DNA of 34,808 nt from Chloroflexota bacterium (GTDB lineage Bacteria > Chloroflexota > Anaerolineae > DSLN01), in NCBI GenBank assembly GCA_902812335.1, contig CADDZL010000006.1:1-34808 (forward strand), read 5' to 3'. This document shows positions 11,284 through 19,348 of the stretch, piece after piece (position 1 is the first letter of the stretch; every line of letters begins with the position of its first letter). The position numbers and the translations under genes were made by a program. The notes beneath the pieces were generated by a model. That model searched no databases and was not told the origin of the DNA. It was given only the letters and a program-made list of their open reading frames with translations.

Positions 11284-14200
11284 TCAGGCTTTCTTTGTCA
11301 ACCCCACGACCAACTCCTCCCCCTCAAACCGGAAGTTCTCCACCGCCTCGCCGGACGGCTCCAGGATTTCGCTTAGTGATTCCGATAGCGTCTCCACAGC
11401 GATGCTTGCAGCGTGGGCGGCGATAGCGGCAGCCAGGCGTGGGCTGGCCCGGTAGGTTGTTATGATACGGTCGGCGATATTGAAGCCCGCCGTCTTGCGC
11501 AGGTCCTGGATGCGCCGGATGACCTCGCGCACCAATCCCTCGGCCTCCAGTTCCGGCGTCAGTGCGGTGTCCAGGGCTACGGTCATCTCGCCTTCCCTGG
11601 CGATGGCATAGCCGCTACGCGGCTCGGTCTCGATCAGCACCTCGTCGGATGCAAGTTCGACCGCACCGCCTTCCAGATTCAGCCTAAGCGACTGTCCGGC
11701 CCGCAACGTGGCGACGTACTGAGAGGCCGTTGCCTGGTCGGCTGCTGCCAGCGCGGCGCGCACTTTGGGCGTGCGCGGTCCCAGCCTGGGGCCGAGCTTC
11801 TTCAGATCGGGCAGCAGACGGTAGGCGACCAACTCCGATTCCTGTGAGGCGAACTCTAACGCCTTGACGTTGAGTTCATCGGCGATGATGTCCCCCAGGT
11901 GCGTCAGAGCCTGGCGTTGGTCCTCAGTGGCGACGACAATGGCGCGGGCGAGCGGCTGGCGCACCTTTAACCCTGCGGCGGCGCGGGCGGCGTGGCCGGC
12001 CGCGACCACCCGCCGCGCCAGAGCCATCTCTTCCAGCCCCGTCACGTCCTCCGCCAACAAGGGGCTAGCTTGTGGCCAGGCACAGTGATGCACGCTCTCC
12101 GGCGCATCGGCCAGCACTTCACGCACCAGATTCTGATACATCGCCTCGGTTACGAAGGGTACGAACGGCGCGAGCAGCTTGGATAGTGTCACGAGGATGT
12201 GGTAGAGCGTGCTGTAGGCCGCGTTCTTATCGGCATCATGCTCGCTTTTCCAGAAGCGCCGCCGCGAACGCCGCACATACCAGTTGGAGAGATCGTCCAG
12301 GAAAACCTCGACCGCCCGCGTGGCGCTATCGGCATCGTAGTCCTCCAGGCACGCGGTCACCTCAGCCACTACCTGGTTCAGCCGGGCCAGTACCCACTGG
12401 TCCAGGATATTGCCTCTCCCCTCCCCTGATAAGGGTGGGGAAGAGGGGGAGGTCACTGCCCGCTGTCCACTGTCCGGGGGCTGCCAGCCGTCGAGATTGG
12501 CATAGGTCACGAAGAAGCTGTATACGTTCCACAGGGGGATCAAGAAACGGCGGCGGGTTTCGTCGGCCAGGTGATAGCCGAACCACAGGTCTTTCTCCGG
12601 CCGGTGGGCGCAGAACATCCAGCGCATCACATCCACGCCGATTTGCTCAGCCCCCTCATGGAAATCAATAGCGTTGCCCCAACTCTTGTGCATAGGGCGT
12701 CCGTCCTCGCCCAGAAGGGTGGCATACCCCAGAACTGTCTTGAACGGCGGGCGGTTCTCCAGCACGGTGCTCATCGCCAACATGCTGTAGAACCAGTTGC
12801 GGAACTGGCCGGGGAAGCTCTCGGTGATGAAATCGGCCGGGAACCACTTCTCCCAGTAAGAGCGGTCGTCGCGGTAGTGCAGCGTCGAATAGGGCACGAT
12901 GCCGGCATCCAGCCAGGGGTTGCCCACGTCGGCGATGCGCGACGATAGCCCACCGCACCGGCTACACATGATCTTGACCGCATCAATCCACGGACGATGG
13001 GGGGTGTGGCCCTTAAATGTCTCCCAGCCGGCGACGGCCCGCTCTTCCAACTCACGTTCGGAGCCGATAACCTCAAAATGGCCGCAGTTTTCGCACGTCC
13101 AGATGGGCAGCGCCAAGCCCCAGTAGCGCTTCTTCGAGATCATCCAGTCGTGCATGTTGCGCAACCAGTCCAGCTCGCGGTCCAGGCCGAACTCGGGTAT
13201 CCAGCGAATCTGCTCGGTCACGTCCATCATCTGATAGCGCAGGCTGCGGCTCTTCTCCTCCGGTGTCAGCGCCTCGCGGGGCTTATCGTAAACCTGGCCC
13301 ATCGAGATGAACCACTCGTCCACCAGGCGGAAGACGAGCGGCGTCTGGCAGCGCCAGCAGACCGGATAGCGGTGGGTGTAGTCCTCCAGCCGGTAAAATA
13401 CCCCCTTGCGCTTGAGATCGGCGACGATAGGCTGGGTCACGTCGGCCACATCCATGCCGCTGAGCCAGCCGAACCCCTCTACGAAGACGCCGTCCTCATC
13501 CAGGGGGGCCAGCACCGGCAGGCCATAGCGCTGGCCCAGTTGGAAGTCCTCAGCACCGCAGCCGGGGGCGATATGGACGATCCCCGTGCCCTCTTCTTCA
13601 CCCACCTCCTCCCATAGCACGACGCGGTGGGCCTGGATAGAGCCGGAGGCTTGCTGAGCCGGCAGATCATCAAAGGGGCCGTCATAGGCCCAGCCTCCCA
13701 GGTCGCGGCCGGACAACTCGCCCAGGACCTGGTATGGGCCGATCAGCATATGGGTCGTGCCCTTGGAGAGGTACAGCACCTCATCACCCTGGCGGACCTT
13801 GAGATAGGTCAGTTGCGGTCCGACGGCGGCGGCGACGTTGCTGGTCAGTGTCCACGGCGTTGTCGTCCAGACCAGCAGGCTCTGGCCGGGCCGGCCGCGC
13901 AAGGGGAAGCGCACCGTCAGCCCGGGGTCCACCTTCTCGACGTAGCCTTCGGTGACGATCTCATGCTGGCTGATGCCGGTGCCGCAGCGTGGGCACCAGG
14001 GCATGACGTCGTGGCCCTTGTAGATCCAGCCGCGTTCCCAGCAGCGCTTGAGAAAGCCCCAGATCTGGTAGTTGTTCTCGTTGGAGAAGGTGAAGTACGA
14101 TCCACCCAACTCGGCTGTGCCCAACCGCCCGATGATCTGCTCGACGGTATCGGTCACCGGGCCGCGTGGCCCCTGGACGGTGATGACCTGGCCGGGGTCT

Positions 14201-14679
14201 TCGCCCAGCTTGTCGCGCAGCCAGCGCAGCAGGTCAGGGTCGTTCCAGTCCATCCACTGGCCCAGTCGGATGGATTGCTCGGTGATGATGGCCGAGTAAG
14301 TCAACACGCGCTGCTTGCACAGTTTGACGAACTCGGCCAGCCCGAAGGTCTCGATGTCGCGCTTGGAACGGAAGCCCAGGTCGCGTTCGACGTTGACCTC
14401 GACCCACAGGCCCTGGCAGTCGAAGCCGTTCTGCCAGCGCTGGTCGTAACCCTGCATGGCCTTGAAACGCTGCCACAGGTCCTTGTAGGTGCGGCCCCAG
14501 GCATGATGAATGCCGGCCGGATTATTGGCGGTGATTGGCCCGTCGAGGAATGACCAGCGCGGGCTGCCGGCGCGCAGGGCACGCAGTTTCTCAAAGGCGT
14601 TGGTCCGCCGCCAGAAATCCAGGATGGCGTGCTCTTGGGCGGCGAAGTCTATGGTGTTGGGGACGTCTTTGAACGGCAT
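11284..14679 (-). CDS. ileS: Isoleucyl-tRNA synthetase with altered signature motifs
   Basis: A class I synthetase of 1131 residues, larger than typical bacterial type 1 IleRS (about 940) and closer to the long type 2 enzymes. Aligned to the usual DGPPYANGSIHIGH segment, residues 46-59 end in G-I-H-H (56-59): the first His and the Gly of HIGH are exchanged. The KMSKS loop reads P-M-H-K-S (662-666), keeping the second Lys. Zinc-type Cys pairs (CPRC, CWRC, CENC, CSRC), the editing domain region and the anticodon-binding C-terminus are present. It follows alaX by 71 bases under the T-box leader. AAGGAGG lies five bases before the ATG. A palindromic repeat encodes about residues 742-757. Confidence 0.95.
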   Translation of the reverse strand: MPFKDVPNTIDFAAQEHAILDFWRRTNAFEKLRALRAGSPRWSFLDGPITANNPAGIHHAWGRTYKDLWQRFKAMQGYDQRWQNGFDCQGLWVEVNVERDLGFRSKRDIETFGLAEFVKLCKQRVLTYSAIITEQSIRLGQWMDWNDPDLLRWLRDKLGEDPGQVITVQGPRGPVTDTVEQIIGRLGTAELGGSYFTFSNENNYQIWGFLKRCWERGWIYKGHDVMPWCPRCGTGISQHEIVTEGYVEKVDPGLTVRFPLRGRPGQSLLVWTTTPWTLTSNVAAAVGPQLTYLKVRQGDEVLYLSKGTTHMLIGPYQVLGELSGRDLGGWAYDGPFDDLPAQQASGSIQAHRVVLWEEVGEEEGTGIVHIAPGCGAEDFQLGQRYGLPVLAPLDEDGVFVEGFGWLSGMDVADVTQPIVADLKRKGVFYRLEDYTHRYPVCWRCQTPLVFRLVDEWFISMGQVYDKPREALTPEEKSRSLRYQMMDVTEQIRWIPEFGLDRELDWLRNMHDWMISKKRYWGLALPIWTCENCGHFEVIGSERELEERAVAGWETFKGHTPHRPWIDAVKIMCSRCGGLSSRIADVGNPWLDAGIVPYSTLHYRDDRSYWEKWFPADFITESFPGQFRNWFYSMLAMSTVLENRPPFKTVLGYATLLGEDGRPMHKSWGNAIDFHEGAEQIGVDVMRWMFCAHRPEKDLWFGYHLADETRRRFLIPLWNVYSFFVTYANLDGWQPPDSGQRAVTSPSSPPLSGEGRGNILDQWVLARLNQVVAEVTACLEDYDADSATRAVEVFLDDLSNWYVRRSRRRFWKSEHDADKNAAYSTLYHILVTLSKLLAPFVPFVTEAMYQNLVREVLADAPESVHHCAWPQASPLLAEDVTGLEEMALARRVVAAGHAARAAAGLKVRQPLARAIVVATEDQRQALTHLGDIIADELNVKALEFASQESELVAYRLLPDLKKLGPRLGPRTPKVRAALAAADQATASQYVATLRAGQSLRLNLEGGAVELASDEVLIETEPRSGYAIAREGEMTVALDTALTPELEAEGLVREVIRRIQDLRKTAGFNIADRIITTYRASPRLAAAIAAHAASIAVETLSESLSEILEPSGEAVENFRFEGEELVVGLTKKA
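12411..12455. repeat. C/T-rich palindromic repeat inserted in frame in ileS
   Basis: CTCCCCTCCCCT on one side faces AGGGTGGGGAAGAGG on the other, an imperfect version of the repeat in proS. It encodes SPSSPPLSGEGRGN in IleRS, at a low-complexity junction between the catalytic core and the anticodon-binding domain where an insert would be tolerated. Confidence 0.65.
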
Positions 14680-14750: not shown

Positions 14751-15467
14751 TTAAGCCGTACCCTCTAGTTCCACGACGATGCGCTTGTTGATCTTGCCCT
14801 TGCTCATGTAATCGGCGATCCGGATTGGGCCGACCTCGCGGGTGTTGGCGACGTGTGTGCCGCCGTCAGCCTGGAGGTCCAGTCCGGCAATCTCCACCGT
14901 GCGCACCTCCTGGATCCCCTCCGGTAGCAGGTTGATCTTGGTGCGAATCAGGTCAGGGATCTGGAAGGCCTCGGCGCGTGGCAGAATCTTGACACGAACC
15001 GGGCGCGCGGCAGCGACCTCAGCGTTGATCTTCGCCTCGATTTCATGCACAAGCTCCTGGCGCAGGCCCTCGAACTCGAAATCCATCCGGCCGCGCAGTG
15101 GCTCCATGTTGCCGCCTGTGACGGATGCGCCATAGTCGCGCCAGATGACGCCGCACAAGATGTGCATCGCCGTGTGGGTACGCATGAGCTGGTAACGCCG
15201 TTCCCAATCAATCTGGCCATGTACCGTCGTCCCGGCGGCCGGCGGCTCGCCCTCCACCTCGTGCCACACATCGGGACCGGCTTTGCGCACCCTCGTCACC
15301 CGCCAGGTGTAGCTACCAGCGGTGAGGGTGCCCGTGTCGTGGGGCTGACCACCGCCGCCGGGGTAGAAGGCTGTCCGGTTGAGGGTGACGGCGTTGCCCT
15401 CTACACCGGTCACGATGGCATCGAACTCCCGCAGATAGCTGTCGGTCTGATACAGGGCTTCGGTCAT
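14751..15467 (-). CDS. AlaX-like tRNA-editing protein
   Basis: The 238-residue product matches the AlaRS editing-domain family (AlaX), which hydrolyses mischarged Ser/Gly-tRNA-Ala. Visible are the family start RTAFYPGGGGQPHDTG, the zinc pair HTAMH and the C-terminal DGGTHVANTREVG. Family members often have CGGTHV there, so the third metal ligand Cys is Asp here. It lies between the T-box leader and ileS on one transcript, which ties an Ala-type editing factor to isoleucine supply. AGGAGG lies seven bases upstream of the ATG at 15467. Whether it acts on tRNA-Ala or another tRNA cannot be read from sequence. Confidence 0.9.
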   Translation of the reverse strand: MTEALYQTDSYLREFDAIVTGVEGNAVTLNRTAFYPGGGGQPHDTGTLTAGSYTWRVTRVRKAGPDVWHEVEGEPPAAGTTVHGQIDWERRYQLMRTHTAMHILCGVIWRDYGASVTGGNMEPLRGRMDFEFEGLRQELVHEIEAKINAEVAAARPVRVKILPRAEAFQIPDLIRTKINLLPEGIQEVRTVEIAGLDLQADGGTHVANTREVGPIRIADYMSKGKINKRIVVELEGTA

Positions 15468-18008: not shown

Positions 18009-19025
18009 TCAGGCCTGCTCGAACAGGCGCGTGATCTCGTCGCGTTCGAAGGATGGCAAAGGCCGCCGTTCCGATCCCTGCCGCAGCCACAGTCCGTCCC
18101 CGGCCGGCAAGACACGACCGATGACACTGGCAGCGATGCCGGCAGCTTGCAAAGCGGCGGTGATGGCGGCGGCGTCTTCCGCGGCGACGGCCAATAGTAG
18201 TGCGCCCGACGCGATGGCACCGGCCGGGTCGAGCCCGAAGTGGGCACACAGCGCCGCTGTCTCCGGCAGGATCGGCACTACTTCGGCGTCCACCTCCAGC
18301 CCTACCTCCGATGCCTGTGCCAGTTCCTGCAATCCGGTTGCCAATCCCCCTTCAGTCGGGTCATGCATGGCATGCACCCGCCCTGCGCCCAGCGCCACCT
18401 GGGCGTCACGCATGACACTGATCCCCGGTTGGTACAGGAAGTTGCGGCAGCGTTCCAGGAACTCCGGTGGGAGCAGGCCGGCGAGCGCCTCGGCCCGCTC
18501 GCGGGCGATGATGGCTGTCGCTTCGATGGCGATGCCTTTGGTCAGGATGAGCGCATCGCCGACGCGTGCTCCGCCAGCCGTCACAAGTTGCGCCGGGGCG
18601 ACCTCGCCCAACATGGTGCCGACGACGATGGGCCGGTCCAGGCCGTAAGTGATCTCGGTATGACCGCCGACCAGGCTGATGTCGAGTGCACGGCAGGCCG
18701 CGCCGATCTGGGTGAAGATAGCTTCAGCCAGTGCCACCTCGGTGCGGCCTTCGGGCAGGAGCAGTGTCGCCAGAAACCAGCGTGGCGTGGCTCCGGTGCA
18801 GGCAATGTCATTGGCATTGATCTGGACGGCGTACCAGCCGATGGCGTCGCTGGCGAAGGTGATCGGGTCTGTCTTGGCGACCAGATAACGGTCGCCCAGG
18901 TCAAGGACCGCGGCGTCCTGACCCACGCCCGGGCCAACAATGACGCGGGGATCGCTCGGCGACACCGCCTCAAGCAAACGGGCGAGCAGTGGAGCGGGCA
19001 GTTTGCCCAAAGGTAACAAACCCAT
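18009..19025 (-). CDS. AIR synthase-related protein (HypE-like)
   Basis: The 338-residue product has the PurM/HypE/ThiL/SelD two-domain ATP-binding fold. GPGVGQDAAVLDLG (about 31-44) is the N-terminal phosphate/metal segment. INANDIACTGATPRW, GGHTEITYGLDRP and MHDPTEGGLATGL are the matching family blocks. It resembles HypE most, but true HypE ends in a thiocarboxylate-accepting Pro-Arg-Ile-Cys tail and this protein ends FEQA. It therefore probably does not make the hydrogenase cyanide ligand, and no hyp or sel genes are nearby. Its substrate is unknown. The ATG follows a terminator U-tract within five bases and has no Shine-Dalgarno sequence. Confidence 0.85.
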   Translation of the reverse strand: MGLLPLGKLPAPLLARLLEAVSPSDPRVIVGPGVGQDAAVLDLGDRYLVAKTDPITFASDAIGWYAVQINANDIACTGATPRWFLATLLLPEGRTEVALAEAIFTQIGAACRALDISLVGGHTEITYGLDRPIVVGTMLGEVAPAQLVTAGGARVGDALILTKGIAIEATAIIARERAEALAGLLPPEFLERCRNFLYQPGISVMRDAQVALGAGRVHAMHDPTEGGLATGLQELAQASEVGLEVDAEVVPILPETAALCAHFGLDPAGAIASGALLLAVAAEDAAAITAALQAAGIAASVIGRVLPAGDGLWLRQGSERRPLPSFERDEITRLFEQA

Positions 19026-19030
19026 CGGTC

Positions 19031-19068
19031 GGAAAAGACAAAGGGCCGCCCTTGGGGGCGACCCTTTG
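19031..19068 (-). terminator. Intrinsic terminator directly before the HypE-like gene
   Basis: On the minus strand CAAAGGGTCGCCC (19056-19068) pairs with GGGCGGCCCTTTG (19039-19051), followed by TCTTTT. It ends five bases before the downstream ATG, so it must be bypassed for expression from the upstream promoter. Confidence 0.75.
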
Positions 19069-19082
19069 CTCGCGCCGTAGCA

Positions 19083-19136
19083 TCAATCCATGACTGGAGG
19101 TGATGCTACGGCGCGGCGCGAACTGTGATTACACAT
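19083..19136 (-). CDS. Putative 17-residue leader peptide
   Basis: The frame reads MCNHSSRRAVASPPVMD and stops with TGA inside the 15-bp hairpin. AGGAGG lies ten bases upstream, slightly far but strong. A Cys codon is second, followed by Asn, His, Ser, Ser, Arg, Arg; no single amino acid dominates. The reading frame, ribosome-binding site and position between promoter and terminator support a regulatory peptide. Confidence 0.5.
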   Translation of the reverse strand: MCNHSSRRAVASPPVMD

Positions 19137-19215
19137 GGTGGCACCACCTCCTATGGATAAAGATGGCAGATTGAAAGAAGATGCTCGTGCGGCCGGGCCG
19201 CACCTTCATGGCCCT

Positions 19216-19244
19216 ATTATCGCAAAAACAGGCCAGCCTGTCAA
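19216..19244 (-). promoter_or_regulatory. Consensus promoter of the attenuator leader
   Basis: On the minus strand TTGACA (19239-19244), 17 bp and GATAAT (19216-19221), five of six in the -10 box. It gives a leader of about 185 bases before the HypE-like ATG. Confidence 0.75.
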
Positions 19245-19271
19245 CTCACCAAAGGTCCTGGCCAGGACAGC

Positions 19272-19317
19272 CAGAGCCGGTTGTCCCTACGCGGCCCGGC
19301 AGGGACCTCTGGCTCTG
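19272..19317 (-). terminator. Hairpin downstream of the DUF5679-like gene
   Basis: CAGAGCC/GGCTCTG (19272-19278 / 19311-19317) and GTCCCT/AGGGAC (19283-19288 / 19301-19306) form a two-part stem 31 bases after the stop of the minus-strand gene and before the leader promoter. No U-tract is visible. Confidence 0.35.
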
Positions 19318-19348
19318 ACTGCCCAGCCAGCCCTGGCTGCGTTGGCAC

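Follow-up and report, generated by a model that had tools for sequence, protein, structure and literature searches.

Organization of the element

The window analysed here is a stretch of 34,808 nucleotides from a Chloroflexota bacterium, and the element that we describe lies on its minus strand, just upstream of an AIR synthase-related (AIRS) gene. The element starts with a sigma-70-type promoter (19216..19244) that reads TTGACA-17-GATAAT, carries an extended -10 TG and agrees with the consensus at 11 of 12 positions. It is the top of five promoter-like sites in 7 kb, where shuffled sequence yields 1.2. In the 5' leader, about 15 nt upstream of the Shine-Dalgarno (SD) sequence, alignments A2 and A3 reveal a GCYATC motif (GCCATC in the window, 19162..19167, minus strand), which is almost invariant in both. 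The SD is extended: the segment AGGAGGTGGTGC (19141..19152, minus strand), with its AGGAGG core at 19147-19152, is complementary to the 16S tail GGATCACCTCCTT, which is present in Chloroflexota genomes, and also forms the 5' strand of a helix that we call P1.

A micro-ORF of 17 codons follows on the same strand (19083..19136), encoding MCNHSSRRAVASPPVMD and ending in a stop codon. Within it, the segment GCATCACCTCC (19096..19106) mimics the 16S tail and acts on paper as an anti-SD; it provides the 3' strand of P1 and overlaps the 5' arm of a second helix, P2. The two arms of P2, CGCGCCGTAGCATCA (19101..19115) and TGATGCTACGGCGCG (19071..19085), both on the minus strand and both supported by folding and covariation, make a perfect 15-bp hairpin, whose 3' arm begins at the micro-ORF stop codon. 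An intrinsic terminator (19033..19068, minus strand) closes the element, with a 12-bp stem, CAAAGGGTCGCC/GGCGGCCCTTTG, at 19068-19039 and a short T-rich tail at 19038-19033. The 188-nt leader folds with a z-score of -7.3, and none of 200 shuffled sequences folds as well.

The AIRS gene (18009..19025, minus strand, ATG at 19025) contains the Pfam domains AIRS and AIRS_C and is HypE/ThiL/SelD-like; its product scores below every NCBIfam equivalog cut-off, so that an identity as HypE, ThiL or SelD is not established. It is a neighbour, outside the conserved unit. An earlier note on this DNA had listed the promoter, the AGGAGG with its 17-codon frame, the perfect hairpin overlapping the end of that frame and the terminator just before the ATG, all of which are present, and had read them as an attenuator of a HypE-like gene. 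This first reading is partly supported: the parts are right, whereas the control of a HypE-like gene by attenuation is wrong or unsupported.

Distribution in Chloroflexota

To follow the element in other genomes, we built a covariance model (R1) from 27 members and searched 396 genomes of the same class. R1 matches were obtained in 246 of these genomes, representing 143 of 222 genera, nearly always with one copy each; a strict sequence pattern matched 13 of the 396. The single copy per genome rules out a mobile repeat. When a strict pattern of this kind was scanned against 84,980 species genomes it returned 77 stretches, and all those with the hairpin belong to Chloroflexota (Anaerolineae, Thermoflexus and Ardenticatenia). 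The pattern scan of viral contigs gave 18 matches, none of them with the hairpin.

The weak R1 matches in other Chloroflexota classes correspond to a sister form with its parts in the same order, for which we made a second covariance model (R2). The sister form was detected by R2 in 52 of 400 genomes of the phylum, and in 48 genomes from outside the phylum R1 gave one weak match, with an E-value of 0.006 that is close to chance level. The sister-form genomes include those that we take to be Chloroflexus aurantiacus J-10-fl, C. aggregans, Roseiflexus RS-1 and Sphaerobacter thermophilus. In the putative C. aurantiacus genome (G500) the element occupies C1:1776731-1776833 on the minus strand. Cultured organisms (Chloroflexus, Roseiflexus, Sphaerobacter) thus appear to carry the element, which would make it directly testable.

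The window element matches nothing in Rfam, either at the gathering score or at a permissive E-value, the spurious microRNA and small RNA matches falling far below threshold, and an Rfam search of 12 member loci returned only tRNAs. No Chloroflexota RNA of this kind was found in the main texts of the open-access literature searched. Several structured-RNA surveys do not name Chloroflexus, Roseiflexus, Herpetosiphon, Anaerolinea or Sphaerobacter in their main text, and another such survey names Chloroflexi for other motifs only. Chloroflexota is a large and poorly studied phylum, and neither Rfam nor the papers searched offered a role for the element. A structured RNA that most genomes of a class carry in single copy, and that has relatives in further classes, is likely to have a basic role.

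Two minor points concern the matches themselves. P2 is palindromic, and the model consequently gives weak matches on the opposite strand as well, as seen at 2559-2656 on the minus strand of locus L226; second matches in a genome may be mirror matches of this kind and not second copies. At the position of GCYATC, the sister form carries GCCGTYCAGGC, which could form a tiny hairpin. In two members (L071 and L095) the -10 directly precedes GCYATC, placing the motif at the RNA 5' end there, and neither P1 nor P2 explains the role of a motif near this end.

Two competing helices

P1 pairs the SD (GGAGGUGRUGC) with the anti-SD inside the micro-ORF (GCRYCRCCUCC), and P2 pairs the stretch around the anti-SD with the strand just 3' of the stop codon, the two helices sharing one segment. 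The anti-SD is the 16S tail sequence itself: the tail GGCTGGATCACCTCCTT is present in Chloroflexota genomes, and its copy in the micro-ORF is CAUCACCUCC or a variant of it. The 16S-tail pattern had no match in the window's own draft genome.

The unit of promoter, leader, micro-ORF, hairpin and terminator that the earlier note had listed is real and under selection, and both helices covary. For P2, double changes occur at 11 of 12 pairs in the covariance-model alignment A3 (107 cells, compared with 19 in shuffles), and the helix is 97% paired; A3 is fitted to P2, which somewhat inflates these counts, and the independent MAFFT alignment A2 agrees, with six covarying pairs and 96.8% paired. Three of seven P2 pairs covary in the sister form.

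For P1, 79 rows aligned by the covariance model are 91% paired and contain 35 double-change cells (13.6 in shuffles), and sliding the strands out of register lowers the pairing to at most 66%. The covariation includes an SD position that alternates as A/G against U/C, and a 12th pair found as UA, CG or GC. In the set of 27 sequences P1 is 100% paired. Most SD and anti-SD letters were specified in advance in the first pattern scans, and the invariance of these letters in A2 is for that reason partly built in, a restriction that A3 relaxes. Four members (L233, L238, L244 and L245) have the anti-SD moved to CCUCCUC and GAGGAGG in the SD region, and the pairing is preserved. The idea of the earlier note that RNA structure gates the SD stands, but the local GGTGG/CCACC that it proposed as the gate is not conserved, most relatives having GGTGATGCYAATG; what the SD pairs with across the family is GCATCACCTCC, farther downstream at 19106-19096, and not the local CCACC.

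We compared ensembles forced to contain P1 with ensembles forced to leave the SD free. The median difference is 0.2 kcal/mol, and 66 of 93 sequences lie within 5; these folding energies ignore pseudoknots, and some members could sterically accommodate a pseudoknot of P1 and P2. The minimum free energy folds contain P1 in L046, L058 and L252 and P2 in other members, and the window sequence favours P2 by about 8 kcal/mol. As modelled, the core of the element is a bistable SD/anti-SD switch, with two states of nearly equal predicted energy.

A terminator/antiterminator pair was considered and rejected: no complementarity between P2 and the terminator is conserved, and the 15-bp hairpin and the terminator have no strand in common. 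The attenuation mechanism of the earlier note fails at this point, because the alternative helix engages the SD of the micro-ORF itself and not the terminator. The SD-proximal GGTGGTGCC is superficially similar to a T-box, a candidate dropped after Rfam gave no T-box match.

The micro-ORF

The reading frame is intact in 77 of 78 members and ends at the same position, with its stop codon in the P2 loop or at the 3' arm. The start codon is found 12-16 nt past GGAGG, and the micro-ORF has 13-22 codons. From the start to the anti-SD the distance is 31, 34, 37 or 40 nt in 71 of the 78 members and 47 nt in six from Thermoflexus, the frame being preserved by length steps in multiples of three. Across the members P1 and P2 covary and the frame is kept; the terminator-like hairpin recurs with differing sequence, and the peptide is weakly conserved.

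Such constancy of start, frame and stop could be that of a functional micropeptide gene, whose mRNA would be autoregulated by SD masking and whose product would be the peptide and not the RNA. The N-terminus, often M-D/S-x-S-S, and a last residue that is often Arg point the same way. However, the anti-SD letters are translated in at least three ways across lineages, as ASPP in most of the class, as ITS in Thermoflexus and as GIT or GVT in other classes, and the codon-position bias of nearest-pair substitutions is weak (17/12/20 and 17/8/24). Serine is encoded by AGY in 122 of 136 codons, which suggests a constraint acting at the nucleotide level. The peptides, for instance MCNHSSRRAVASPPVMD and MDEKRRTDLKEAGRRITSGER, have no common amino-acid run, and no run of codons for a single residue was found. 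The weak codon signal and the lineage-specific frame led us to reject the peptide as the sole conserved product, and we consider a micropeptide gene very unlikely overall. Since frame and stop are kept while the codon bias is weak and the anti-SD is read in different frames, selection appears to act on translation across the anti-SD segment, and to a lesser degree on the peptide sequence. The one exception, L226, has a truncated and broken micro-ORF, and translation may be dispensable there.

Two further loci of Chloroflexota family f74, not clearly members of the present RNA family, have SD-led frames of 12 codons followed by a stop, MAKSTEISETGA in L251 (~1972-2053) and MTETPQISESGA in L256 (~1964-2044), in which a perfect terminator hairpin carries the stop codon in its loop.

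Neighbouring genes and independence of the unit

The genomic context was read for 78 members, including 60 loci from R1 matches. An AIRS gene is the codirectional downstream gene in 21 of them, from several families. In about 30 of the 78 the next gene is convergent, and encodes an HNH endonuclease, RpoD (in Thermoflexus), a short-chain dehydrogenase or other proteins. Codirectional neighbours other than AIRS include homoserine dehydrogenase-like genes, tilS, which has a promoter of its own, and a gene for a TPR protein. No AIRS gene is present within 2.5 kb of the element in the Chloroflexus, Roseiflexus and Sphaerobacter-like genomes. With AIRS downstream in only these 21 members and many neighbours convergent or unrelated, an attenuator of a HypE-like gene is not what the family as a whole presents.

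The same question was approached from the gene, by searching 60 relatives for AIRS orthologs and inspecting the DNA upstream of each. The element precedes AIRS in five other relatives and is absent upstream of 17 correctly oriented orthologs; orthologs of this kind, which keep the gene and lack the element, are what the earlier note had named beforehand as evidence against its reading. Six AIRS loci (L009, L010, L023, L024, L029 and L032) were left out of this count, and in two of their genomes (G013 and G048) the coordinates place the element upstream of AIRS. Several genomes whose AIRS ortholog lacks the element upstream (G006, G018, G023 and G031) have it on a separate contig. A riboswitch for AIRS was also ruled out, because the element occurs without AIRS.

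The limits of the unit are retained where its neighbours change. A near-consensus promoter with a spacer of 16-18 bases lies upstream of nearly all 78 members, with few exceptions, and a terminator-like hairpin, differing in sequence, follows P2 in the other members. Because the downstream genes vary and are often convergent, and promoter, micro-ORF and terminator are kept, the element can be read as a stand-alone transcription unit. Judged from sequence, it is an independent gene and not the leader of a downstream gene, with an RNA of roughly 130-200 nt, for which the element itself would supply both the sigma-70 promoter and the intrinsic terminator.

In the window, the AIRS ATG follows the T-tract within a few bases, the interval has no visible promoter, and AIRS lacks an SD of its own, so the gene probably depends on transcription from upstream. 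This arrangement, and the close codirectional AIRS genes in several families, would fit a cis-acting leader in which the micro-ORF/hairpin unit controls read-through into AIRS and senses ribosome occupancy instead of an amino acid. Against this, AIRS is missing downstream of most members, many of which face a convergent gene, and AIRS orthologs without the element exist. The terminator has no visible antiterminator partner, and the AIRS genes of L052-L054 carry an SD of their own downstream of the terminator. A cis-acting leader is improbable in our judgement as the function of the family. In the window and in other AIRS-adjacent genomes, the independent gene may in addition act on AIRS by terminator read-through; in the window, the few bases after the T-tract leave no room for a promoter. 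A leader-like element beside a gene can be mistaken for its regulator until its wider distribution is seen.

Proposed mechanism and comparison with known systems

We propose that the stretch holds one copy of a stand-alone, single-copy Chloroflexota small RNA gene with a self-masking, ribosome-toggled micro-ORF switch, a reading to which we give a probability of about 0.7. During transcription, the SD and the anti-SD would leave the polymerase first, and in an RNA with no ribosome bound P1 could form and mask the start of the micro-ORF. The 3' arm of P2 would emerge later and displace the SD from the anti-SD, setting the SD free. A 30S subunit on the freed SD could then lead to translation through the anti-SD, ending just before the P2 3' arm, which would reset the fold. 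Since the two states are nearly equal in predicted energy, the RNA should switch between them when a 30S subunit or ribosome binds the SD or passes through the anti-SD in translation. The sequences show the parts and their conservation, the covariation of both helices, the constant frame limits and the independence from any single neighbour; we infer that ribosomes flip the switch, and that the act of translation would count more than the peptide. The output would be in trans, for example through exposed CACCUCC acting on the SDs of mRNAs, or through the reporting of free 30S subunits.

An alternative would be a trans-acting, SD-pairing small RNA of the C-rich-loop type, with an incidental ORF. 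With P2 formed, CACCUCC or CCUC would be exposed in the loop and could bind SDs generically, the element is a stand-alone gene, and C-rich regions of Gram-positive small RNAs such as RoxS bind SDs (PMC5419742). An incidental ORF, however, would not keep its frame and stop position, and we regard this alternative as unlikely. Returning to the ribosome-toggled switch, one specific and still tentative form of it, which we hold as a minority possibility, is a ribosome gauge: with a full-length SD and a 16S-tail mimic in one bistable core RNA found throughout the phylum, translation of the micro-ORF by free 30S subunits would determine which state the RNA adopts, and the anti-SD exposed in untranslated RNA would compete with ribosomes for mRNA SDs in trans.

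The architecture resembles that of leader-peptide and SD-sequestration switches, but without a regulated gene. Like the trp and ilvB uORF leader-peptide attenuators, the element has a promoter and an SD, a short frame, helices that exclude one another and an intrinsic terminator, all in a single leader-like unit. In contrast to them, it has no fixed target gene (AIRS in 21 of 78) and no regulatory codon run, and its competing helix masks the micro-ORF's own SD and forms no antiterminator. The erm leaders are translational attenuators, in which an SD is masked or released by helices that refold when a micro-ORF is translated. The element likewise has a micro-ORF and helices that would mask or release an SD; it differs in that the masked SD belongs to the micro-ORF itself, no second ORF is present in the RNA, and the terminator closes the transcript. 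The element unites ribosome binding, a micro-ORF and an internal 16S-tail copy in one self-contained switch with no attached gene, an arrangement that the usual logic of cis-regulators leaves unexplained.

Dual-function or peptide-coding small RNAs such as SgrS/SgrT and SR1/SR1P (PMC5521070) are also stand-alone RNAs, from promoter to terminator, with a short frame, a property that for the element is read from the DNA alone. The element is set apart from them by its internal 16S-tail mimic, by a micro-ORF whose structural constraint is phylum-wide, and by a weakly conserved peptide. The downstream-peptide motif and yfr6 RNAs of cyanobacteria (PMC2864571) are similar as structured small transcripts with a very short conserved frame, and have no sequence relation to the element by Rfam. 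In those RNAs the structure lies in the 5' UTR ahead of the frame, whereas in the Chloroflexota element the frame runs through the structure.

Other features of the window

Upstream of the promoter, a long imperfect inverted repeat (19251-19336, minus strand) separates it from the end of a small C..C-type frame, which by eye is DUF5679-like; the repeat attracts spurious microRNA matches in Rfam. Farther away, at 14751-15467 on the minus strand, the window encodes a lone AlaX-like protein, consisting of the C-terminal part of an alanyl-tRNA synthetase with a tRNA_SAD domain. Its gene adjoins a class I tRNA synthetase gene with a DUF5915 domain (11284-14679).
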